Source: Heterotrichella gracilis
Lineage: Eukaryota > Sar > Xanthophyceae > Tribonematales > Xanthonemataceae
Assembly (NCBI GenBank): GCA_032358255.1
Contig: JAULBX010014870.1
Location: 1 to 64,000, forward strand
DNA length: 64,000 nucleotides
Reading direction: 5' to 3'
The notes beneath the pieces are model-generated. The model was not told the origin of the DNA and searched no databases. It was given only the letters and a program-made list of their open reading frames with translations. A program made the translations under genes and the position numbers. Shown piece by piece: positions 30,152 to 56,207 of this stretch (position 1 is its first letter; every line of letters begins with the position of its first letter).

Positions 30152-32939
30152 TTACAGCAGGTGGTGGATCCCCTTGTTGCTCTGCTGCAGCAAAAAGTCC
30201 TCCGCATCGTACACCGCCCGCCCAAACCAGCGCGCCTCCTGGCACATGTCGGTCCACGCCCCAAGCGTGGTGATGCACTCGTCCTGGTCGCCAAACAGCG
30301 CCCTGCGGAACGTGATTAGGGTTTATGGTCGGGCACTGATGTACATGTGCATCACGCACTGTGCTGGCCACCACCGCCCGATGCACGCACCTGCATGTGC
30401 ACACAGGCCACCGCCGCCGTGCCGCCACCGCTACTGAGCGCATTTCTGACAGCAACCACACCCTCCCTCACTCAAGCGCAACCGCTGCATACTTGCATGC
30501 AGCAACTATTTCATACACCCCACACCCTACATGGTACGCCCTGTATATACCCTGCACCCTGCATGCTGCACCCTCATCTCCCACCATCGAGAGTCCAATG
30601 CTCGCCTGGTATGTGGACCCCGCACCCACATGCTATATCATATCTCCCCGCCAGGGGGATATACTAGTTTACGAATCTAAATTTTACTATAAGTACTGTA
30701 ATTAGTCCCCTCCAACGGTCGACCCAGCCGTTGGCTCAGCACCTGAGTTTGAGTTGAGTCTTGAGTTCAACTAAACAAGGGGTCGCAGGTTCGAATCCTA
30801 AGGGTAGCGATATTTTTCGAATTTCCCTGAACTTTGCGACGGGATAAAATGGGGAGCACGAAAGTGCGGTAAGCGGCACGACTGGTTGGCCACCATCTGC
30901 CACACTCGAAAGAGTGTCAGTTCAGCCTTGGCTCTAGGACTGGGGTGAGGCATACCCAGACATGCTAACCTGGCTTCGAAGCTGGAAAGCAAATACTTAC
31001 TTACTTACTTACTTACTGTAATTAGTATATTATAAAGTGTATCCCTGCCCACACCAGTGAGTCCACTGCGTACCTGATGTGTCTGCTGACCACCGCCGCC
31101 GCTGCTGCCGACCGCATCTCCGCCAGCTCATCCGGCACATTCTCAAAGAAGCGCCACACCTTGCTGACGGAGCCGTAGTACGACTCCCGCTCCTCGGTAG
31201 GCCCCGTGTACACACCGGATTTGGCGGGCGCAGGCCGACCCTGCACATGGCCACACGGCTCAGGCCCCTGGCTTTTGTGTGGATTGAATTTGCCATTTCT
31301 CAGCATTTACTTACACGCAATACATCTGCATGCCACCACATGAGCAGCCAGCCTTGCACATGCACCTGCAATCACCCATGCAGCTGCCTGCAAACTCCAG
31401 ACCCCTTGCCTACCTGTCTGTGCAGGTGCATGCGCCTGTTGAAGTAGCCCCAGTCGGCATACATGTGGTAGGTGCGGGCGGCACCAAAGCGGTTCATCCG
31501 GCTGGGCCGCTTGCTGTCGAAATCCACCAGCATAGGGAACGAGCCACTGCTGCCGCTGCTGCTGCTGCCGCTGTTGCTGTCGATGCGCGCTGCTGCGCTG
31601 TGGCTGCCGCCCCACCACACGCCGGATTTGAGGGTGGTGGGTGGGTACCCAGGGTCTGCACGCAGGTGGTTCCTTGTGGGTGGCTTGGCCAGTATAACAA
31701 TGCACAGCAGATATGGCAGGCGTGGTGCAGAGGTGCGGTGCCAGGACTGTAGGATGCATAAGCAGTGCATTAATGCCCATAAGCCCATTGGACCAAAAAC
31801 CTGCAAGTGCTTGCGCCGGACCATGGCAACTGTACGTTTTGGGTTGGAGCACCATCCCTATGCACACGGGTACGGGGACACCCAAGCCAGTGACACACAT
31901 GAGACGCCGCCACCATGCCAAGTGCGCGTGCAAGTAAGGCCCACCTTGGCTACTGCCGCTTGCTTCCTCGCGTTCCGAGTCCTGGAAGCGCACCGAGCCA
32001 ATGAGGTACAGCCCGTCTTGGCCTGGGAGCAGGTAGGTTGGGGATACCATGTGCTTGCCGTCGGTGCCTTGCGCCAGCCAGCCAGTACCAGGCCGTCCTA
32101 GTAGGTGCCTGAAGAGGCAAAAGAACAAAGGGTTTAGGGTTTAGGTTTAGGAGGTCCTGACCAAGAAGCAACAAAGGCCAAGGGTGTGAAGCATGTCCTT
32201 AAGTGAAATGCACCAGTCAGGCAAATATATGGTTAGGTGTATGCCTGGGTGCTTGCTCAACATTCCCAAGTTGTCGAGATTGGCATATACTCATGTAAGG
32301 ACTGGGCGCTGACGGGGTTGCACCAGACGCACCGCATGCTTTCTTGCATGGAGCTGTTCAGACAGTACGCCTCTGCAAGCGCCCAGGCATACACTATGTC
32401 CTCCACCACAGCCTGGTGCCTGGCGGTGGCCACCCGGTCCCCGTCCAAGCTGCCGTGCAGGATGTTTTCGCTCGTTTCCCATATGGCTTGCAACGCCAGG
32501 GTCACAAACTCCTCGGGCTTGTCTTCCAAGCAGTGCAGCAGCCCGCTGCCTACTGTCGTGAGGTTGATGGCAACTGGAATGCCCGCTGGAGGGTGCTGGC
32601 AGCTGACGGTGACTGATAGCCTACTTGCTTTGACGTGGGTGGCTCTGGACAGGGTCAAAGGCTGGCCAAACACTGCGCTAGTGCTAGCCCGCACACGAAC
32701 CTGTGAGTTGACTCGTTGTGAGGGTACCTGCGAGACGCAAAAGGGCCATAAAAGTTGTGTGTATTCACACAGGCTGTGCATCTGAGCACAGTCTCGTCGA
32801 ATGCATGCATTGTTGGGCAGCATGCATGCAGTGTGTGTGGTTATGCATGCATAGTGACAGCACGTTTTGAATGGTCAATACTACCAACCTGGGCGCAGTG
32901 CAACGTCACTGGTAACGTGGTTGCCGCTAACGAAGCCAT
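30152..32939 (-). CDS. Unrecognised 403-residue protein
   Basis: Six exons (32939-32889, 32727-32291, 32108-31945, 31655-31414, 31240-31074, 30302-30152) join with consistent phases and strong splice sites to give 403 residues, so the gene is real although I do not recognise the family. Visible features are an N-terminal stretch with few acidic residues (MASLAATTLPVTLHC, then basic RVRAS-type sequence) that could be a transit peptide; a helical region with FVTLALQAIWETSENILHGS and AVVEDIVYAWALAEAY; a Ser-rich run in exon 4 (SNSGSSSSGSSGSF); then aromatic-rich segments such as FGAARTYHMYADWGYFNRR, VWRFFENVPDELAEMR and QEARWFGRAVYDAEDFLLQ. No catalytic motif stands out. The intron between the last two exons carries an intact SINE. 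It could be a plastid-associated conserved green-lineage protein, but that is a guess. Confidence 0.75.
30694..31026. repeat. 13-bp target-site duplication flanking the SINE
   Basis: The identical 13-mers at 30694-30706 and 31014-31026 bound the SINE exactly. They mark the insertion as made by target-primed reverse transcription. Confidence 0.88.
30707..31013 (+). mobile_element. tRNA-derived SINE, intact with target-site duplication
   Basis: A 307-bp insertion is flanked by the identical 13-mer TACTGTAATTAGT at 30694-30706 and 31014-31026. The left part carries a box A-like sequence, TTGGCTCAGCACCTG (about 30731), and a perfect box B, GGTTCGAATCC (about 30788), spaced as in a tRNA promoter. 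A tRNA-unrelated body follows, and the element ends in five CTTA repeats. These are the hallmarks of a tRNA-derived SINE moved by a LINE machinery. It sits in the intron between the last two exons (30303-31073) of the unrecognised minus-strand gene, in the opposite orientation. The perfect flanking repeats suggest a recent insertion. Confidence 0.88.
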
Positions 32940-40001: not shown

Positions 40002-43000
40002 TCATTGGCTGGCGTCAGGGACCTCTGGAAATATGTCTGCTGTGGTTGCAGCAATGGCCATCACCTCGCCTGTCAGGTTCTGCAGCAGGGCACCAGGGAC
40101 TGAGTGCCAGCACAGGACTGCATGTGCGAACGCAGCAATAGTTGTCCAAAACCCCTAGCTACAGCATGCCATGTGCTCAACCGCGTACACTTGCCAAGCT
40201 GATTGCATGTGCTTCGTGAGGTACACAGCGTTGGAAGCCATGCACTCCTCTGCCTACTGGGTATCTAAGACGTGGTGTACTGCAGGATGCACACGCACAC
40301 GCACGCGCAAGGCAATGAACAGCAGGCTGCATTCAGGATTTGCACAAAAAAAACACCGTGCACCACAAAAGCCATCCTCGCCGCCACGCCCACGCCAACC
40401 ACCACCTACCCCTGGTACATTCAGCTCCTCCAGCGAGGCCTGTAGGTGCCCCGCAACTGACCGCCAGTGGCTGCGGTTCAGGCCGCGCGTTTTGATGAGG
40501 TCGGCGTGCGCCTCAGCCAGGTCCTTGCCCTTGTACTTCTCTGGCCCGCCAAACACGTAGCTCATGAACTGGGCCTGGGTGGATGCAAGGGGGTGTAAGC
40601 AAGCGGACAGAGGGAGAGGAGGAACTACAGTGGGTGAGCTTGGTGGTGGTGGTAAGACACATGTTGGTGAGGCTACCCACATGGTGCGGGGCACTAGACC
40701 CCATGCCGTCATGAGCCCGGGATCTAGGGTTTAGAGCAAGGGGGGTAAGCAAGATGACATGGACAGGGAAGAGTCACAGGTGAATTTTGGCGGTGGTGGT
40801 TGCCTCACCTGCTTGTTCATCAGGCTGAGCATGTCCACCCCATCGAAAAAGTAGGAGATGTAGTCATCCTGGAGGCACTTTTGGTAGAACAGCTGCACCA
40901 CCGCGCTCACCGCCCCCAGGCCCCCCAGCCGGTCCACAAGCGGGGGCTCGGGCTTAGGGAACACATCAGCGGACTTGGCCACGTGGCCCATGGCCTCGTC
41001 TATCAGGTCCTGCAAGGGGTATGGAGGAATGGTACAGATGGTGCAAGGGGGGCCCTGAATCGCGCGAGACAGCTATCCTTGGGAACCAGTGGTCACAAGT
41101 GCTTGGCGCCGCATGTGCAAGGCTGGCTGCTAATCTGTCTGCATAACTGAATGGATTTCACTACCTATCAAAGGGAAGGGATAGAGGCTGCGAACACATG
41201 CCAGTAGGACAAGGTGGTGTATGAGAATGACCACAGAACACACATGATGGGAACACACAGCTGCAAGTAGCCATGCCATGACGTGAAACCAACAACCACC
41301 CCCACACGCCAAACCCCCCTTTCCCTTCCTTCCCCCATCCCTACCTGTGGCACGTTGAGTTCCTCCAATGACTGCTGCAGGTGGCCCGCCACCAGGTTCC
41401 AGTGTGTGCGGTTCAGGCCCCGCTCCTTGATCAGCTTCTCGTGCGCTGCCGCCAGGTCCTTGCCACGGTACTGCTCCGGCCCGCCAAACACATAGCTCAT
41501 GAACTGGGCCTGGGGATGAGAGGGGGGAGGGGCGGCGGGTGAGAAGGCAAGATTCACATGCTTGAGAAAAGCCACAATGGGGATTTACATTTTCTTTTCT
41601 TCTTGTGGGTGTTGACTACTTCTGGATGCCGATGCTGAAAGCTGTCAACAGACATCTGGCTGGCAACAGAGCACTAAAACTTGACGACTGAAATGCAACC
41701 CTTGTCCTACCTGCTACACGATATTCTAGTATATTTTCTGACAACATACAAACGCCATTAATGGTCGGCCACCGCCTCCCATGCCATCCCCATCTCCACG
41801 CACCTGCTTGTTCATCAGGGTGAGCATATCAATGCCCTCAAAAAAGGGCGCCAGCTCGAGATCAGCCAGCGACTTCTGATAAAACAGCTGCACCACAGAG
41901 CTAACCGCCGCAAAGCCACCCAGGCGTTCAAAGAGAGGCTGCCTCGGCGGAGGGGCCTGCAAGCAACCAGCCACCACGTCAACATGTGCAGGGAGCTTGG
42001 TAAGGGTTTGGGGTTTAAGGCCCCTACGCAGTGGTGCATGGGGAGCACAGCCACCGCGGCGTCATGTGCATGGGTGAAGAAATTGATTTGTGCATCTGGG
42101 GATCGGGTATGTGTGGGGCGGGGGGGGGGCTGGGCTATTTTGGCCAGCGCATCCGCCTAGGGGCGGCTAACATGGGTTGGTGCAGGGGGCCCACTGGCAT
42201 AGGGAGCAGCACATGCCGCTTGAATGCATGGTTTCAACCACCCCTTGCAAACGCAACACCACATGCACACGCAGTGTATAGAATGCAGCCAGCCTAAGCT
42301 GGATCATGCTCGGGTGCAGCAGCCCATTACCTGTGAGCCACTGTAGTTGCCCCCGCTAGATCCTGATGCATACTGGCTTCCAGAACGATGGTTTGTGCGT
42401 GAATCATCGTAACCACTCATGACTGAGTCCCGCCGGGGCATGCGGTCCTCGCTCCTGGCATATGAGTCCCGCGAGTAGGCATCGTCATTCCTGGGATTGG
42501 AGTCCCGCCGCGCAAATGACTCGTCATTCCTGGGATTTGAGTCCCGCCGCCCAAATGGCTCCTCGTTCCTGGGGTTTGCGTCCCGCCGCCCAAATGACTC
42601 GTCATTCCTGGGGTTTGAATGCCGTCGCCCAAAGGACTCGTCATTCCTGGGATTTGAGTCCCGCCGCCCAAATGACTCGTCATTCCTGGGGTTAGAATCC
42701 CGCCGCCCAAACGCCTCGTGATAGTTAGGGATTAATTCGGGCCGCACAAACGGCTCGTCGTTCCTGGGATTTGAGTTGCGCCGCTCAAAGGGTTCGTCAC
42801 CCCTAGGGTACTGGCCCAATGAATCCCCCGTCCTGGGGTACCCATCCCTGCCTGCTGCCTGGTCCCTGGTGCTGCACATGCCCTGCGCATCCATCTGCCC
42901 CATGCCGCCCTCCGGATATCCCCCCCTGTGGAACTGCTCCGTCCCCGTGGTCAGCGCCGACGCCATGCTGAACCCCGTCAGGCCCTGCTCCAAGCCATTG

Positions 43001-45688
43001 CTGGCGACGCTCATGCCCGCAGCGCCCGACCGGGGGCGGGGCGCGGGCCCGCGCGCGCTCAGGCTGCGCTCCGCCCTGCGCCCCGCAGCGCGTGCGTGGG
43101 GGCGCAGGAGCTCCACCAGTTGCCCTGCGCTGGGGCGGTTGTTGGGGTCCTTGTCCAGGCAGCGCCACACCAGGTCGTCGATCTCGCGGGAGCACTCCTC
43201 GGGGATCCTGCAGGGCAATACGATGGTCAAGGGTTAAGGGTTTTCAGGCAGTGCCCGTCGACCCTGGCCAGGGTTGAGTTGCCCACACATCCCAAAGAAG
43301 GCATTGGTGGCGCCAAGGCACAGCAGTGCACTGCTGGTGCAGGGCGCCCTGTTTAGATGGATACAGCAACATGGCGTCGGTGAGAACACTACATGGGGGC
43401 AGTTCAGCAATTTTGCCATTGTGGTTCAAGGGTTAGGGTTTAGGGTTGAGCAGCGTACATGAGGTGGCGCAGGCGGCCACGGATGGGCAGCTGCCCCGTG
43501 ATGATCTCCCACAGGATGACGCCAAAGCTGTACACATCCACCTTCTCGTCGCACTTGGAGTTGTCAAAGAGCTCTGGGTGGGAGCAGGGGGAGGAGTTAG
43601 GGTTGAGCAGGCACAAGGGCATGGCGAATCATACCTAGAGTTGACAAACATGACAAGCACAGGTGCAAGATTGACTGCTAATCCGGCTGTATTGCTGGAA
43701 TGCATATACTTAGCCAACTAACTAACTAACAGTTACAGGCGCCAGCAGCGCACCTGGCGCCATGTAGTTGAAGGTGCCAAACACCCCCGTGATCATGGTC
43801 TCCTTGGCCACCTTGGCCAGGCCCACGTCTGCCAGCTTGGCTTGCAGCGCGGCCGACAGCAGGATATTGGAGGACTTGATGTCAAAGTGGATGACGTTCC
43901 GGCTGTGCAGGAAGTGCAGGCCAAGGGCAGTCTCGTACGCAATCTTCTTGCCCCTGCAGCAGCACCTGGTCAGACATGTGAGGAGATTGACGCTGCCCAG
44001 CGTACTTTGGGCAGTACCTGATTGATCAATCTTGGGCCCCGCACCCACCAAGGCAAAGTTCCACCACCCAACAGCACAACCACCAAACGGCACCACATCC
44101 TGTCCAACATCTCACCGTTCCTCGCCCAGGAACAAGCGTACAAGCTCCCAGGTTGCAAACCCTAAACCCTAACACAGGGTCTAGCACCTACCGTTTTTCA
44201 AAGTCACCAACTCTGACCACCAGCACCACAAAGAGACAACCCCTAAACCCTACGCCCTAGACCCTACCATTTCTCCCAAATTGGGACCCTAAAACCCTAA
44301 CACAGGGTCTATAGCACCTACCGTTTCTCCCAGGTCACCAGCTCCGACTCCAATGCTGACCTCAGGTCACCGCCAGCCATCAGCTCTGTCACCAGCATGA
44401 GCTGGTTGGCCACCACGTCCACGCACACGCCCAGAAACTGCACGATGTAAGGGCTCTGCATGTGGCGCAGGAGGGCAATCTCCCGTATCAGGTGCTGCGT
44501 GGCTGTGTTGGATGTGCCTTTGACGATCTTGACAGCAACAGGCAAGGCGCCGTTCATCAGCCCCCGGTACACCTGCACCACCACAAAGGGGTTTTAGAGG
44601 GTGGCTGCAAGGTGCCCAGATCCTCTGCACTGCTACTTTGAAGCAGGTGACCCTTGAACGCGGTGACTGCTGGGCAAGCAATATGATGAGCACAGTAGGT
44701 TTGCTACCCAGAAGTTGTCAAACCAAGGCGGAGCACCATTAGCAACACATCCTGCACAGGACAAGTGAACCGGGCAGTGCCCATCTCCCCCGCCACTTAC
44801 AAAGCCATACGCTCCCTCGCCAAGTACGTTGTCCCTGCCATCTAGCGTCCTGGTAATCTCAATGTCACCCGCACTCAACACGCCATTCTTCCACTGCAGG
44901 TCAGTGGCCATGCTGTCCAAAGCCTCCTGCAGGGTCATCCTCCCGGACCCAGAGTTGTTGCTCTTGTGGGAGTCGTTCTCCCGTTGCCCGGACCGGTTCT
45001 GTCCCTGTTTGGCCTGTTCTGACACTGTTTGGCCACTGTCAGGCGCCGCCTCCTGGCGAGTCATGCCAGGCGTATCAGTGCTGCCAGAGTGCTGCACGGT
45101 CTCGACAGGGGTCATGCGCTCCACAGAGAACCTCAGCAAGTCCACTGCTTGGAACGAGGTGCGCTTTGAGGTTGGGTTCCCATGGGCGGTGGCCTGGACA
45201 AAGGCAGAGTCAGACAGCCCTCTCTCCCCTGACCTATCACCAGTGGGCTGCTGACCAGAGTGAACAGCAGCTGGCCGGGGCTGCGAACCACTAGCAAGGC
45301 TGCCGCTGCCGCCACTGGCATCTGCTTGGCTGCTTCCTGTCTGGTCAGCAGGGGCGGCTGCAGGGACTGCATATTCACCAGAGGTATCCAGTGGCTGGTT
45401 GGCTGCAGCCTGAGACTGTTGAGGCTCAAACTGAGCTGCCCGCGCCGCTTCAAGCACGTCATCCGCAAAGGTGACGCTCCTGCGTTTTGTGAACTCCGCC
45501 CGGGGAGTGCTTTGCTGCCTGTTCCACCACACTGCTGCCAAAAGGCACAGCAGCAACGTGAGTAGGACGGCTGTGGTTGTCTGGAAAAAGGCTGCTTGAG
45601 CGTTCACCTCGCTGCTTGAAGTGAGTACAGCCCCCACCACACAAGCTGCGCTTGCACTGGCAAGGAACGCAAACTGCCACCTAGCCAT
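40002..45688 (-). CDS. Membrane-anchored TKL-type kinase fused to two truncated hemoglobin domains
   Basis: Ten exons (45688-44801, 44572-44322, 43953-43754, 43573-43459, 43207-42331, 41956-41804, 41509-41345, 41009-40809, 40574-40410, 40079-40002) join in frame to give 1030 residues. Two hydrophobic helices (about residues 4-24 and 35-56) are followed by a Ser/Gln-rich linker. The kinase domain (about 272-510) has GEGAYGF, AVK (Lys 311), [10 protein letters not shown] (Asp 404), ADVG in place of DFG (Asp 422), an APE rebuilt at a splice junction and [11 protein letters not shown]. About nine 13-residue repeats (consensus [13 protein letters not shown], residues about 611-731) come next. Then come two group-1 truncated hemoglobin domains, each in two exons, with [25 protein letters not shown] (first) or FGGPEKYKG (second) and proximal His 851 and His 973. 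Each globin is followed by an amphipathic ExMxxxxxxxADxFP helix. The globin exons have no in-frame ATG of their own, and the kinase exon ends in a consensus donor (CAG/GTAATG). Without that splice the kinase would stop eight codons later and the globins would be a separate gene. Confidence 0.75.
42470..42835 (-). repeat. Coding minisatellite, about nine 39-bp units
   Basis: A 39-bp unit, GC-rich and in frame, is repeated about nine times inside the fifth exon of the kinase-globin gene. It encodes 13-residue units of consensus [13 protein letters not shown]. Units 3-8 are close copies, and the outer ones (for example [13 protein letters not shown]) are decayed. Length variation between strains is expected. 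Confidence 0.9.
43640..43735 (+). repeat. Possible 3' end of a SINE related to the 30.7-31.0 kb copy
   Basis: The segment from about 43671 reads GCTAATCCGGCTG, then GCTGGAATGCATATACTTAG, and ends in AACT repeats. The SINE at 30707-31013 ends with GCTAACCTGGCTTCG, then GCTGGAAAGCAAATACTTAC and CTTA repeats. The ordered matches suggest a truncated or diverged relative. It lies in an intron of the kinase-globin gene. Confidence 0.4.
44158..44355. repeat. Duplicated exon-end/intron segment with telomere-like motifs
   Basis: The segment AACCCTAACACAGGGTCT, then AGCACCTACCG, at about 44165-44194 recurs at about 44296-44323. In the second place it spans the real donor of exon 2 and runs into the exon. 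The first copy, within the intron, continues with a diverged version of the exon end. CCCTAAA repeats flank both. Confidence 0.65.
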
Positions 45689-48038: not shown

Positions 48039-51000
48039 TCATGATGCAGATCCTTCATGCAATGCAATCTCCATGTCACCCGGGGTCAGCCGCTTCTGGC
48101 GGCGCAGTGTCACGTCCAAGGGCTTCTGGAAGAGTGGCACTGTGATTGGGCCCGTGCGGATGGTTGGAATTGCGCCTGTGTAGTTCATCATGTCCACGAT
48201 GGGTAGATATGCCCAGGCCAGCAGCGACAGCTTCTTCTCCTTGGCCTTCCAGTGCTTCACCTCCAGGAACAGCACCGAGTCTGCACAGGGACACACGCAC
48301 GCAACAATCAGCCTATGCCCCGATAGGTAGAGAGTACTGGAATTTCACTCAAGTCAATCGGCATAAAATGCTCACCGCACTTTGTGAGAATTACAACTCC
48401 CAAGCGGTTCCCACTCCCAGGGAGGCAGGGAAGAGCAACACGCACCCACTTGCAAAGATTGAGTAAAACCCTAAACCCTAACCCATGCGCATGCTGCTGG
48501 TGTGGCAGTGTACCTCGAGCTATGCCAGCGGCAGGCGTCCGGAACTTGGTGAACTGGTCCGTAAACAGGATGGTGCCCGTGTTGCGGTTGAAGCTGCCAG
48601 GTGGCGTGTCCTGAGGGGGCTCCACCAGGGAGCCAGTCTTGGACTTGAGTGTGAGGATGACAAACGGCCGGTCCAGTGGCTTCCTGTAGCCGGTGGAGCA
48701 GCTCTTGACCTCAATGGCAAGGTACTTCCAGTCTGTGGTGGAGGAGGAAGGGAAGGGGGGGTGTCTTGGCAGTGCGCAGCAGTAACAGGGGTTGCAGGTT
48801 TGCAGGAGCGTGAAGATGTCATTTTTGACAATTTAATGCTACGGCCGGCTAGGAAACCAAAGCATCGCGATTGAGGTTGTGTTAAACAATGCACAACCAC
48901 AAAGAAACGCTTTGCTGCTGGTGGCTTACCTTGCATGCTAGGGTTCTGCGACGTGCCCGTTACCCCTTGTGTGTCCTGGCCGTTACCCCGCGCCAGGCCT
49001 TGCGACTCCAGCCAGTCATATGCTTTGACTAGGTCAATGCCATTGGCCTCCAGTGCTTGCTGCACATGCCACACAACATCACTTGTAAGTCTGCTACATG
49101 GCTATATTTGGACAGCAACGCATGGTGGATGCCTACATGACTCATGTGTTGTCTGCTTGCAATCCGCCCTGCGTCACCACTACATATCATGCCGCAGACC
49201 TCTTAAGCAATCCAACCACAGCAGCGCTACAGGTCCCACGACACATGGCCACCAAGCACACTTGTAATCGCCAAGCCCCGTGTGCCTCGTCCTGTGCAAC
49301 AGTAACTGCTTGCTGCGTGTATCAAGTGACACTGCAAGACCACCCGCAACTCAGTAACACCATGCATGCCACCTACCTTGGCCAGATCCTCAGATATGCC
49401 CAGCAGCTGCAGCTCGCGAATGGCCGACTCCAGCTCAGCCGTTTCCAGCGAGGGCATGGCCAGCCTGGCGCCGCTTGCTGACACGATCACCACCCCCTCT
49501 GGTATGTCGCCGATGAGGTAGCGCGCATCCTCCCGCGTCAGGCAGGGCGGCAGGGGCACCGCCTTGGTGGCGTGGCGCAGCAGGCAGATGAACACAGCAA
49601 GCTCCTGCGGCACCAGATAAAACAGAATTGGTGTAAGAACATTATTGTTTATATCATTATTGATGGTTTTTGTGTGTAACACATGATAAAATGACAGCAT
49701 GCAATGTATTCCATTTCATTCAATACAGTATTTAGACAAATCACTTATAGTTAGTTAAAAAGGTGCGCTGCAATGTGCCAGACGGCGCTTATACTATCAA
49801 GCTTGTGGGCAGGAACGTGGTGTGCATGTTCCTGGCCAGGGTGTGGCCATGCAACAAGTGCCGCTCCATGTCCATTGAGTTAGCTAGTGCCCTCTCATTT
49901 GAAATACGCAGCCATGGTAGGGTGACAACGGGTACATGACACCCCCCGGAGTGGTAAGCATCTTCTCTGAGATGATGCGGGGGCAGTTACCCCTCCTCAG
50001 ACTCCTTAACCCATACACACTCGTGCCACCACTGGCAACGCCGTCATGGAAACCTGACTACGGGAATGTGCCTAAGTGAGGGTTGACACATGTGGCTGAA
50101 TAGTGGGCCTACAGCCTAGGCACTTACGCAGCACACACATACACCCACCTCCTGGTTGAGCAGCTCATCCTGGTCTATGTCACTGAGGGCAAACAGGTGG
50201 TCTTGCACAGGCAGCGACACGGCCTCAGCGCACAGCTGGCGGGCAAATGGCTTGGCCACGCCCCCGCTCAAATTGTAGCCCTGCACAGGATGAGGCACAT
50301 GTGTGGATGGGGTCCACCTTGTAGGTGCGCTGGGTGGCTGTGAAAATTTGCAAGCACATGCGTTGCAATGTCGCACACATGTATAAGGCATGCAGGAAGA
50401 AAAAACCCTTCCTCCTGGAGGAAAGCCATGCTGATGCCACAAGGAAACATTTAGCACCATGTGCAGGAAAGGAGGGCTCAGGCACAGCTGCCATGTGTGC
50501 CGCAGGGTCTGGGCTCGCACCTTGCTGATGTACACTGCGCTGATGTCCCGCCGGTCCTTGGGCGACAGAGGGCTGAATACGGTGGTGTCTGCAGCAACAC
50601 ACAAGTAAGCTCAGTTGCCCTGGCCCCCACAATCCCACCCGGTCATTGAGAGATAGGTATACGGTGCGCTATAGAATTTGAACAAGGTGTGCCAGAGCTG
50701 GGTATGGCACCCTGTGCAAGGGTGCAACCTGCCAATCTGACGGCACCACATGAATAAAATAAACTGAACAATCCATCCTTGCAACCGTATAGCTGGTGGT
50801 CACAATTGCACTGTGCGGTGCTGTCAAGATCTGGTTCACAAGGACAATGCCACTGCCAATGGAATACAGTGTCAAACACATGGTAGGGACACGCAAAGCA
50901 ACCACCAGTCCTTAATCTCCATTACGCAGTCCCTACTTCAACCAATGGCCTCGTATGCATGTGGTCATAAAGAAAAATCAAGCCAAATACATGGGAACCG

Positions 51001-54000
51001 CACCGATGGTCAGCTCCACCCTGGGCTCGGTGATTGGGTCCGTCAGCTGCACAGGCGCAGCGCCATTGGCCTCCACGCCACTGTCCATCTCCGGGGAGCC
51101 CATGGCTGCGATCGCCGCGCCACCCCGGGTCGCATCCAATGGCTGCGCTTCCGGTGCGCCTGGAGCACCGGCATCAAAGCTGGTCCATCCAGGTGGTGAG
51201 GATGGCTGTGGCGCAGCTGCAGTGGGCGAAGCGCCCTGCGCACCAGCCGCTGTCGCCGCGCCAACAACCCCCACCACTGCACCCGCGGCTACAGCATCCC
51301 TGGTGGAGAAGCCATTTGAGGCAGCAGGGGTAGCCTCCTCGCCCTCAGCAAACGATGTCCATCCTGGTTGCACCTCCGGCTCGGTCTGCTGGCTGTTGAA
51401 TTTTTCCAGTGCAGCGTCCAGCAGCGCGTCATCGTCATCGCCAGTCCCCTCGCCCAGGTGCATGGATGCGCGCTCTGCCGACTGCCGCCGCCCCTCAGCC
51501 TGTGCGTCCACCCATGCTGTGGTTGCGGCTGTGACAGGCATGCTGACCTCCTCGCCCTCTAGCTCGACCGGCTCTGCACCCTCCTCCTCCCCAAATCCAG
51601 CCCAGCCGCGCGAATCTGCCACTGCTGCATCAGGAACCGCAGCTGAGGCAGCTGAGGCGTCACCAAATGCATAGGAACCCTCGTCCTCGTACTGGGCAAT
51701 GAACACTTTAGCTACATCCTCCTCTGCCTGTGGCGCTTCTGCAACACCTGGCAGTGCTGATTCCTCTGCCGGCGGCTCAGGTTGGTACTCAGGTGCCGCC
51801 TCCACAGCCACTTCCTCTGCCGCTGCCAGATCAGTACCAGGCTCCTCTTCCTGTGCAGGAAATGACAAATTTGCACTCAATTTGGGTGGGTTGCAGATAG
51901 CATATGCATGCATACCACAGTGCATGCACACAGGATGTGAAGTTACATGCATTCCAGTAATACAGCCAAATCAGCATGCATGCAGTAATGCAGTGTCCCT
52001 TGTGCTTTGGGGGGCACTCACTTGCACCGGGGCTGGTGCGATGACATCATCCTCGTCAGCAACGGCAGCATCCTCTGCAGCGATGACCTCATATTCATCA
52101 GCTGCATCGGCTGCATCTTGGGCCACCGGTGCAGGCGCAAGCTCCACCTCTGCCTCTGCTTCAGGCTCAGCCTCATCCCCCGCTGCATCCAAAGCAGGCT
52201 CCTCGGCATGGAGAGCCCTGTCAGCCTCAACACCTGCCGCGCCCACCACGTTTGCACTGGCTGGAACCTCCGCAAATGCAGCTGGCTCTGCAGCAGGCAC
52301 CGCTTCCTGGGCAGCAGTAGTGTCAGCTGGGAGGTCATCGGGGACGCCCTTTGCAGCGCTGCCGCCTGCCAGCGCCGCTATACCAGTACCAACCGCCGCT
52401 GCACCAGTGCCAACCGCCGCTGCCAACGCAGCCAGGGAGCCGACGCCAAACCCGCCCTTGCTCTGCCCCTCATCTTGGTCAGGCTCCGCGAAAGAGGTCC
52501 ATTCTGCAGGCGCTGCAACTGGCTCAGGCTCGGGCGCCGGCTCAGCGAATGTGGTCCAGTGGGTGGTTGCTGTGTCCTCTGGAGGCTGGATGGCGGATGG
52601 CGCTTCCTCTGGCTCTGAAAAGGTGGTCCACGCAGCAGCGGTGCCAACCACTGCCGCAGCCCCAACAGCCGCCACAGTCCCCACAGCGGCCCCAGTGGCA
52701 GCAACTGCCCCCACAGCCACAGCCCCCGCCGCAGCAACTGCAGCGGTGCTAGCCACTGAGTGCCCCTCCTTGGCGTCCTCCGCAGAGGCTGCATCGCCAA
52801 ACTCCGAAGCCACTGGGGTGGGGAATGGTGCATTGGTGACTTCTTCTGATTCCACATTGCTGTCCTGCGCGCCGGCAATGGGCGCTGAAGCTGCAGCTGC
52901 TGGTGACTCATTGCTGAAGGTGGTCCACGTCGGCTGTACAGGTGGGGTATCCTGTACCTCGCTGTAATCTGCAGAGGGTGGCGCATCCTCCACAGGCTCC
53001 TCATCCTCCACCACATGCTCCTCCAAGTGATCCTCGGGCACAGCTGATGCAGCTGCCAGGACTGCCGCTGGCCCCTCGTTGAAAGTGGTCCACGCTGACT
53101 GGGTGGGTGGCTCATCAGGTGGGGATGGCGTGTCTGCCACCACCTCCCGGGGTGCGGCCACAGCATCAGCTGCAGGGACTGTGGGCACAATGGTTGTTGC
53201 AGCAGCATCCTCCGCCGGTTCCTGCGCACTGCCGCTGTCTGCCACCACCTCGCCGCCACCATCCTCATCCCCAGCATCGTCACCATCCTGCAATGGGCCA
53301 GCAATGGCACTCAGCATGCTTGCACCTTGGCGTAGGCATGCACCCCGTCCACAAATCCGCCAGTGCAGACTGCCAGATGCACAGCCATGCACAGTCACTG
53401 ACCCAGCACACCGCACACCGCATGCAAATCCGCCAGCGAGCGCATAACGTGCCGCATTGACAATTCCACCGCCCCGGCCCTGCTCCTACCCTCCGCACCC
53501 ACCCCTTTCCCCCCACGCGCACCTGCATTTCCTCCAGCTGCGCCTGCACCACCAGCAGCTGCTCCACCTGCGCCTGCACCGCAGCCAGCGACCCGGCCCT
53601 GTCGCGGTACTTACGGCTGCTGGACAGCAGGGTCTGCAGCCGCGCCAGCTCAGCGCTCACATTCTTGGCAAGCACCTGCAGCAGCAAGAGGCCAGCGCAG
53701 ATGGTTTAGGGTTTGAACACGCTGACACGTGGCACCCGGCATCGCCATGCTTTGGTGAACATGAGGTCTATACGGCAAGGGTGGCGGAGGGAAAGAGTGG
53801 CCAGCAGATACATGGCACTTGCCACTAATGGTGGTATTACCATGCATTTGTAAATTGTGATGGTGGCATGACGATGGCGTTATGCAAAACCACTAGCCAA
53901 TCATCTACATGCGGTCCGTCATGCTGGACACACACAGCGCCATGTCTCCTTCTGCACAACCGCATGGCTCAACTAAGGGTAATCAGCCTCACTTCGACTT

Positions 54001-56207
54001 CCTCCTCCCCTAGCTCATCATCTCCCTCCCCACCCTGCAGCACTGCCGCCGCATCCGACAGCACAGCACCAGCCTCCGGTACAGAAGGCAAAGCAGCTGG
54101 CGCCGGCTCCTCCACAGCTGGTGCGGAGAACAGGTCCTCAGGGAGCGGCGAATCAAACCGCACGCCTGAGGCCTGCTTCACCAGCACTGGCGCTGAAGCC
54201 TCCTCTGGCGCTGGGGGCTCCACAGCAGCGGGTTCTGGCGATGGAACTTCAACCTGGGTCTGCTCTTTGTCACCAGCTGCTGCCACCACAGCAGCAGTTG
54301 TAGCTATTGTTGCCGCAGCTGCGACCGGAACGGCAGCAGGCTTGTCCCCAGAGAACGACACCCAAGATGCGCCGCTCTGCTGTGCAGGGGCGGGTGCTGT
54401 CCATGGGTTATCAGCTGCAGCTGGAGCCACGGCCGCAGGCACAGGCTGAGTAGGAAACTGTTCCCAGGTAGCCCCGCCAGCAGCCACGGCCCCGCCCATT
54501 GCCGCCGCCGCGGCCAGGGTTGCTGCCCCGCCAGATGACTGGCTGTGCAAGGAGCCCTGCTTCTGCAGCGAGCCCTGCGTTTGCAGGCCAGTGGGGGTGG
54601 TGACGCTGTCCGCCATGCTTGACGTGCGGGAGTGGCGCGAGGGCGGGATGCCCATAGCGCTGGTCATGCCCTCCGCCAGCGCATCATAGGGCTGGCGGTG
54701 CACGTATGAGGCGGACGCAGAGCCGGTGGGGGAGGTGGGCTGACTCTGGGTCTGCTGGAACTGAGTCCATGTGGAGGGGGCTGGAGGAGGCGCAGCCGCG
54801 GGTGGGGCAATGGGTGGGGCTGGTACAGGGGCGGGGCCGCTGCTGAAGCTGGGTGGCGCGGCGCGTGCCACCGCTGTGGCCGCTGCAGCAGCAACAGCTG
54901 GCGCGGCGGATTCTGAGAGGGTTCTTGAGCGGGACACGCCTTTAGGCGCTGCTGCCCTGGCAGTGTAGATGAGGTCCATGCACACGAAGAACTGCTCCCG
55001 GGATATGAAGGAGGGGTTCCTGCCAGCTGCAAACAACACTATCTCCTCCAGCACTGACTCCTGCAGGCACAGCAGATTACGATGGGTTAACCCTCTCACT
55101 CCCAGACGAAACCCTAGCGACCGCCGAAATTGCACGCTATTGAGGCCTCCCAGCCGGTCGGGTTTGCCTATACCTAGATGAGTTTGGGGAGAGCTCTACT
55201 CACCGGCAGGGCGCCCCGCTGAAAGAAAGCTTTTGCGTCTGTAGCAGGAATCTGGGGCCGCCCTGTGTTGCCGGTGAGCTTGTTCCAAAACACCACGTAC
55301 TTCCCGTTGTCCTCGTCTGAGATGCGCGCCAGCACACTCATGGGCATCTGCATACACGCACAGTGGTCAGTTACAGGCGGTTGGGTGGGTTGTTCCAATG
55401 CTGGGTCCGCAGGTGAACAAGCAGTCAAGGCTGCCAGGCGGTAGTGAGTGGTACCTTATAGGTGTCGATGATGTTGAGCACAGCGTCAAGCTGCGGGTCA
55501 ACCACAGCCATGGGGGCAGGGGCTGGGGCAGTCGTCAGTGGTTTGCCTAGCTTGCCTTGCAGTACTAGCTCCAAGGACTGCCTGAATTGGGCCTGTAGCA
55601 CACAGGACAGAGTGACATACAAGCACACACCCAAGCGGACTGATAAAGGGTAGGACTCAACGAGGATGGCTCACCTTGGTCCTGATGTTCCCTTCAGGTG
55701 CCACTGACATCTTCCAAATGGCACTGAGCATGGACTTTGGAAGCCCAGAAGCGCTGTAGAACACTTTTGCATCACCCCCGCCAACACAACCATCCCCATC
55801 TGTGACAAGGGTAGCAAAGCAGTCACAACGAGCACTGATGTACTGCATTTAGGGGCTTTTGAGGAAAGGTACGCTCCTCGGGTGGAGGTTCCGTATTTCA
55901 AACACCAGTGAGGGTGGGTAGCAGTTCCACATTCAAACAGCATTGGGGGTGGCAAGACTGGTTGCAGTCAACCAAACCTTCAGAGCTTCTGCTGCCAGAT
56001 GTAACCAATTCTTACCTCTGTCGGCCTCGTGGAACGCATTGGTCAGGGCGATAGGGTCCTCCAAGCACTTGTAAATGTTGTCCACTGCAAGCATGGCCAA
56101 GTCAGTCACACACCCTTGACCACACTGGGGTTCTCGACCTAGCTCAGCTATCAGCTAACCACACCCAGGTCTGGTTTGCACTCACCAGACCAGTCAAACG
56201 CCGCCAT
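48039..56207 (-). CDS. Giant EH-domain endocytic-type adaptor with WxxF repeats, UBA and C2-Aida domains
   Basis: Fifteen exons join in phase to give 1616 residues: 56207-56186, 56084-56016, 55799-55675, 55592-55455, 55347-55204, 55060-53993, 53675-53523, 53287-52022, 51850-51004, 50588-50521, 50280-50149, 49604-49377, 49059-48930, 48732-48514 and 48280-48039. The start MAAFDWS opens a first EH module (DRDGDGCVGGGDAKVF, then SGLPKSMLSAIWKM). A second follows: YVVFWNKLTG, PATDAKAFFQRGALP, then FISREQFFVCMDLI. EH domains bind NPF motifs in clathrin endocytosis (Eps15/Pan1 and plant TPLATE-complex EH proteins). A coiled coil (about 523-573) and very Ala/Pro/Glu-rich linkers carry 11 W-x-x-F motifs. 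A third EH-like module (about 1278-1400) has RRDISAVYISK and ALSDIDQDELLNQEELAVF. A UBA follows (RELQLLGISEDLAKQALE, then DWLESQG). The end (about 1464-1616) resembles a C2 domain of the Aida type (LFLEVKHWKAKEKKLSLLAWA). Function in vesicle formation is inferred. Confidence 0.88.

Follow-up and report, generated by a model that had tools for sequence, protein, structure and literature searches.

In the window, that is, the whole stretch of 64,000 nucleotides that was analyzed, a gene predicted to encode a protein kinase followed by two truncated hemoglobins (trHbs) was found on the minus strand between 45688 and 40002. It is called C150 here. The gene model was rebuilt from the sequence and consists of ten minus-strand exons (Table 1), which amount to 3093 nt or 1031 codons with one terminal stop, and all nine introns are of the GT-AG type. 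The exon coordinates and the intact 1031-codon frame given in the initial annotation were reproduced, as was its claim that the kinase exon ending at the donor 42331/42330 and the group-1 trHb exon starting at 41956 would be joined in phase 0. From the N- to the C-terminus, the predicted protein has two hydrophobic segments, a TKL-like kinase domain, a repetitive linker, and two group-1 trHb domains. A Pfam search of this protein recognized Pkinase (residues 287-516, 1.2e-53) and, at 1.4e-26, two Bac_globin stretches. Both families score over their Pfam cut-offs, Bac_globin with 93.5 bits against a curated cut-off of 21. Neither a reductase domain nor Protoglobin was among its Pfam matches.

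Table 1. Predicted exons of C150 and the intron at its kinase-globin junction.
Feature	Position in the window	Strand	Content
Exon 1	44801..45688	-	start codon, hydrophobic segments (6-24, 35-53), extended N-terminal stretch of low complexity, kinase start (P-loop)
Exon 2	44322..44572	-	kinase N-lobe (VAVK lysine)
Exon 3	43754..43953	-	catalytic loop HFDIKSSN (non-RD); ADVG replacing the usual DFG
Exon 4	43459..43573	-	kinase C-lobe
Exon 5	42331..43207	-	end of the kinase domain, then a linker (about 250 residues) containing a 39-base tandem repeat
Intron 5 (kinase-globin junction)	41957..42330	-	374 nt, phase 0
Exon 6	41804..41956	-	first half of trHb 1 (TyrB10, LeuE7, LysE10, GlnE11)
Exon 7	41345..41509	-	second half of trHb 1 (proximal HisF8)
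Exon 8	40809..41009	-	last helix of trHb 1 and first half of trHb 2
Exon 9	40410..40574	-	second half of trHb 2 (proximal HisF8)
Exon 10	40002..40079	-	end of trHb 2, C-terminus, stop codon

Several repetitive elements accompany the gene. The 39-base tandem repeat lies at 42453-42789 and is translated as the repeated units of the kinase-globin linker. At intron 2 of C150 (44182-44332) there are three copies of a 21-nt piece of exon end and donor. Degenerate copies of the preceding exon end and donor were also seen in introns of C106 (76135-76336), C314 (2733-2804), C443 (66679-66771), and C277 (223359-223625), where they repeat partial kinase or globin exon ends. Telomere-like CCCTAAA stretches occur at 32133, 43432, 44160, and 48469, two of them inside C150 introns; these four matches, each with one mismatch, compare with 0.03 expected from shuffling. 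Elsewhere in the window, minus-strand ORFs at 1083-2058 resemble a rhomboid-type protease in a sequence motif, and the minus strand at 50978-55195 has long ORFs that are rich in Ala and Glu and in which WTxF-like repeats are numerous.

In the kinase domain, HFDIKSSN stands at the usual HRD site and ADVG at the usual DFG site. In this genome, 21 kinase pieces are readable; their loop reads HFD in 19 cases and HLD in two, and the Phe residue of DFG is replaced by Val, Ile, or Leu in every one. Non-RD regulation is expected for such a catalytic loop. Since the catalytic Lys, Asp, Asn, and Asp residues are all present, the C150 kinase is likely to be active. Its assignment to the TKL/RLK type comes from the catalytic residues and from the nearest relatives in sequence comparisons. 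Among the PDB relatives an EGFR construct came first, and CTR1, SYMRK, and IRAK4 were among the best of the next ones. TKL-like kinases from plants and green algae are of the same broad kind, trebouxiophyte kinases being 39-46% identical to the C150 kinase, whereas the best 120 of 1029 matches include no protein with Bac_globin.

Both globin units of C150 belong to the group-1 trHbs, since Bac_globin scores over its cut-off and HisF8 and TyrB10 are present in each. The closest PDB matches are Chlamydomonas THB1 (2.8e-32) and THB4 (6.8e-31), while THB11 also matched (2.6e-17). HisF8, TyrB10, and LysE10 are shared with THB1, and LeuE7 and GlnE11 with THB11. The complete distal set of C150 (Tyr B10, Leu E7, Lys E10, and Gln E11) equals the one given in PMC7082302 for THB11, for which nitrite reduction has been measured and whose terminal extensions promote oligomers. 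That paper describes THB1, THB4, and THB11 as single-domain proteins or as proteins with extensions of unknown function, whereas the C150 globins stand in tandem behind a kinase. Across the genome, HisF8 was found in 19 of the 20 kinase-linked units for which both halves were found (the exception, in C106, has Tyr at F8), and TyrB10 equally in 19 of 20 (the exception, in C413, has Leu at B10). LysE10 is present in five of the nine units in which this column is filled, the column being blank in 11 units owing to a short profile match.

The N-terminus of C150 is probably located at a membrane, as judged from its sequence. The membrane anchor proposed in the initial annotation agrees with the two N-terminal hydrophobic segments, which were read from a hydropathy scan that marks residue 339 of the kinase domain as well and is therefore not specific. 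ORFs with a hydrophobic segment were also seen upstream of paralogue kinases (two of the ten listed for C272, one of eight for C427a, and none of eight for C749), but these upstream ORFs are not tied to the paralogue genes and thus the tether is predicted for C150 alone. The label of a receptor, which had been proposed as well, is doubtful. Only about five residues precede the first hydrophobic segment and about ten lie between the two, and an extracellular domain would not fit into such short stretches of the present gene model; the pairing of an extracellular ligand domain with a transmembrane segment that marks receptor-like kinases is thus not seen in it. C150 may have an unseen upstream exon.

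How are the kinase and the globins connected? The splice from 42331 to 41956 is very probably used. If left unspliced, the kinase frame meets a stop at 42304, and the globin exon follows 348 nt later (about 320 nt later in C272), a short spacing for two separate genes. On the minus strand of the window, the junction donor ranks at the 96.4th percentile of all GT and the junction acceptor at the 91.2nd percentile of all AG, both within the range of the other eight introns of C150 (donors 84.5-100, acceptors 73.2-99.9). The scoring matrices were built from other loci of this genome and comprise 15 donors and 46 acceptors, a few of the latter being doubtful. C272, C427a, and C413 likewise offer a phase-0 donor and acceptor at the junction. 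In C106, the sole phase-0 acceptor near the globin exon falls within the domain, so that an extra exon would be needed there. Frame, phase, splice scores, and the 11 loci described below agree in pointing to both domains on one chain; the counterpoints are that the C150 junction acceptor failed a cruder pyrimidine-tract filter and that the kinase-globin gaps of C427a and C427b do not align, so that their comparison gives no confirmation of the junction.

Is this arrangement common in this alga? The genome of 68.5 Mb in 903 contigs was searched, and globin matches were found on 13 contigs, in the case of C306 by the Pfam model only. The fetched pieces were scanned with exon profiles, and from the table of matches up to an E-value of 0.05 the loci and the globin units were read. 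In this way 15 trHb loci were counted, and 11 of them (C150, C106, C272, C749, C427a, C427b, C413, C376a, C376b, C277, and C270) have a kinase of the same lineage upstream on the same strand. In all 11, the first globin-like match lies 0.4-1.8 kb past the last kinase exon. The number of globin units per kinase ranges from one to about six, the highest number being that of C277, C376a, and C376b. No kinase was detected near C161 (about 4.5 kb upstream), C141, C556, or C306 (about 1.5 kb each), and none of the matches listed in the kinase search lies on their contigs. No globins were found near the same-lineage kinases C392, C465, C198, C314, and C443, either in the genome searches or in the downstream stretches, which covered about 1.2 kb for C198 and 2.0-2.8 kb for the other four. 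Chance adjacency was considered and rejected: about 0.3% is expected per globin locus (83 kinase matches x 5 kb / (2 x 68.5 Mb)) versus 11 of 15 observed. The kinase search scored 79 of 451 candidates and the true kinase density is higher, yet a tenfold density leaves the rejection unchanged. Because 11 of the 15 trHb loci have a same-lineage kinase directly upstream on the same strand, a one-polypeptide fusion is likely. Thus, the kinase-trHb fusion of the initial annotation gains support from ten further loci of the same genome, while its interpretation as a whole is supported in part. C150 looks less like an isolated oddity or a pair of neighbors than like a member of a globin-kinase family that has expanded in this lineage.

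In a kinase tree of 31 rows, the globin-bearing kinases fall in a single lineage of this alga (86/78) that also includes five kinases for which no globin was detected, and C150 is sister to C272 (97/90). The presence of globins requires two changes on this tree, against a mean of 9.3 after shuffling, and none of 500 shuffles was as low. A single clade of globin-bearing kinases was not rejected (p-AU 0.346). The globin tree, which has 24 rows and is weak, repeats the grouping of the C150 units with those of C272 (80/54) and of C427a with C427b (100/99). On it the kinase-linked globins are not one clade (two changes, with four of 500 shuffles as low), and the stand-alone globins THB1, C556, and C141 group beside those of C150 and C272 (97/89). 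The dN/dS values, which are rough since they were obtained by the Nei-Gojobori method on short exons, are all below 1, namely 0.20-0.55 in five comparisons of globin exons and 0.25-0.46 in three of kinase exons. Between C427a and C427b, the globin exons can be aligned together with their splice sites (69-72%), and most of the introns cannot.

The initial annotation knew of no described kinase with such an architecture. This was too strong, since PMC7082302 states that fusions of 2/2Hb domains with protein kinase had already been revealed, as had proteins containing several 2/2Hb domains. The fusions mentioned there have a trHb and a protein kinase on one chain, as in the C150 model, and may or may not belong to the C150 family. 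The proposed search for proteins with both Pkinase and Bac_globin gave none among the matches listed in the protein database (28, the best 120 of 1029, and 2), and it was within the genome itself that further kinase-globin loci appeared. These protein searches need shared 5-residue words, and one of them scored the 7997 candidates sharing most words, so that distant cases may be missed. No description of a kinase-trHb family was found in the literature searched, as judged by titles and the beginnings of abstracts. One scan for viral relatives of the C150 globins gave six pattern matches in viral contigs, none of which was confirmed.

Signaling fusions of another kind make up 26 of the 28 listed trHb proteins (P0003-P0028), 16 with an MCP signal domain and 10 CheA-like. 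They resemble C150 in having a group-1-like trHb of bacterial type on a signaling output, which in CheA is a histidine kinase, but they are prokaryotic two-component or chemotaxis modules, whereas the C150 kinase is of the Ser/Thr type. Globin-coupled sensors also have a globin joined to a signaling domain. According to PMC7082302, however, they are a 3/3Hb family, whereas the globins of C150 are 2/2 group-1 trHbs that are C-terminal and in tandem; in place of a 3/3 sensor globin, they match Bac_globin and 2/2Hb structures. Among the proteins with several trHb units, P0001 by my count has three units plus ankyrin repeats and P0002 about eight, and P0149 has seven Bac_globin stretches without a kinase.

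The favored explanation is that C150 is a heme-based sensor kinase on one chain, to which I give a probability of about one half. C150 would be one protein, a non-RD TKL-like kinase tethered to the membrane by its N-terminus and carrying two group-1 trHbs in its C-terminal tail, and this alga would have about eleven genes of this kind, C150 included. Binding of O2 or NO, or the redox state of the heme, might alter the conformation or the association of the globins. The flexible linker could relay this change to the kinase, which would then phosphorylate partners at the membrane. Given the fusion, the odds that a gas controls the C150 kinase appear about even, to judge from the sequence.

Another explanation assumes two neighboring genes, a kinase gene that stops at 42304 and a tandem-trHb gene whose short 5′ exon lies in the gap, copied as a pair. 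The in-frame stop lies shortly past the donor, and separate genes duplicated as a pair would give the same arrangement. The gap contains six candidate 5′ exons with an ATG, four of which leave an intron of at least 71 nt; the donors of these four, however, are at or below the 87.5th percentile and thus weaker than the junction donor. The initial annotation had claimed that the globin exons lack an in-frame upstream ATG. This is true of exon 6, whose 41-aa upstream open frame contains none, but exon 8 has one in the last helix of globin 1. Since exon 8 codes across the boundary between the globins, from the last part of globin 1 into the first part of globin 2, both globins are on one chain if this exon is used as modelled, regardless of whether the kinase is joined to them. 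The absence of an ATG was rejected as a proof of fusion because it is not diagnostic; the kinase-less globin C141 also has no ATG in its open frame. Upstream of the first half of the first globin, an in-frame ATG is absent in C150, C106, C272, C427a, C427b, and C376b (with 9 aa open in the last), and it is present in C413, C749, C277, and C376a, as separate globin genes would have it. TGTAA serves as a poly(A) signal in other green algae. It does not occur in six kinase-globin gaps totalling 4521 nt, which speaks weakly against a gene end there, since this word is not enriched in the window (12th of 30 words of the same composition; found in two of the nine C150 introns). With gaps as short as those of C150 and C272 and an arrangement preserved at 11 diverged loci, two separate genes are quite improbable.

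It is also conceivable that the globins of a fused protein are enzymes (NO dioxygenase or nitrite reductase) or a membrane-held NO sink, and that the kinase is blind to their ligand state and maybe regulates them. As stated in PMC4620153, THB1 of Chlamydomonas is an NO dioxygenase that works together with nitrate reductase, and raphidophyte nitrate reductase itself bears a trHb. The likeness of the C150 distal set to that of a nitrite-reducing globin, as given in PMC7082302, fits an enzyme, and the arrays of about six units in C277, C376a, and C376b fit a sink. Yet kinases upstream of globins at 11 loci are more easily explained by signaling, and Pfam found no reductase in the C150 protein, so this explanation seems unlikely. 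A fused protein whose globin fold is a dimerization or scaffold module, with heme ligand binding being unimportant, is about as improbable as two separate genes. C106 without HisF8, C413 without TyrB10, and the oligomer-promoting extensions of THB11 mentioned in PMC7082302 would suit it, while the retention of each of these residues in 19 of 20 units stands against it.

For the family as a whole, I tentatively propose that the heme-based sensor kinase has become a set: about eleven tethered eukaryotic-type kinases with trHb arrays would be graded O2/NO sensors that arose independently by exon shuffling, the number of units perhaps tuning the response. If so, they would be a eukaryotic counterpart of the bacterial heme-based sensor kinases. 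The expansion, the tandem trHb arrays that follow a TKL-like and probably tethered kinase, and the naturally graded array lengths seem to be new. It is poorly resolved how algae perceive NO and O2 upstream of their responses to nitrate and hypoxia. A chain that combines a heme globin with a protein kinase, if true, would provide a direct link for such sensing, and the different array lengths found in one genome offer a natural series for the role of tandem globins.
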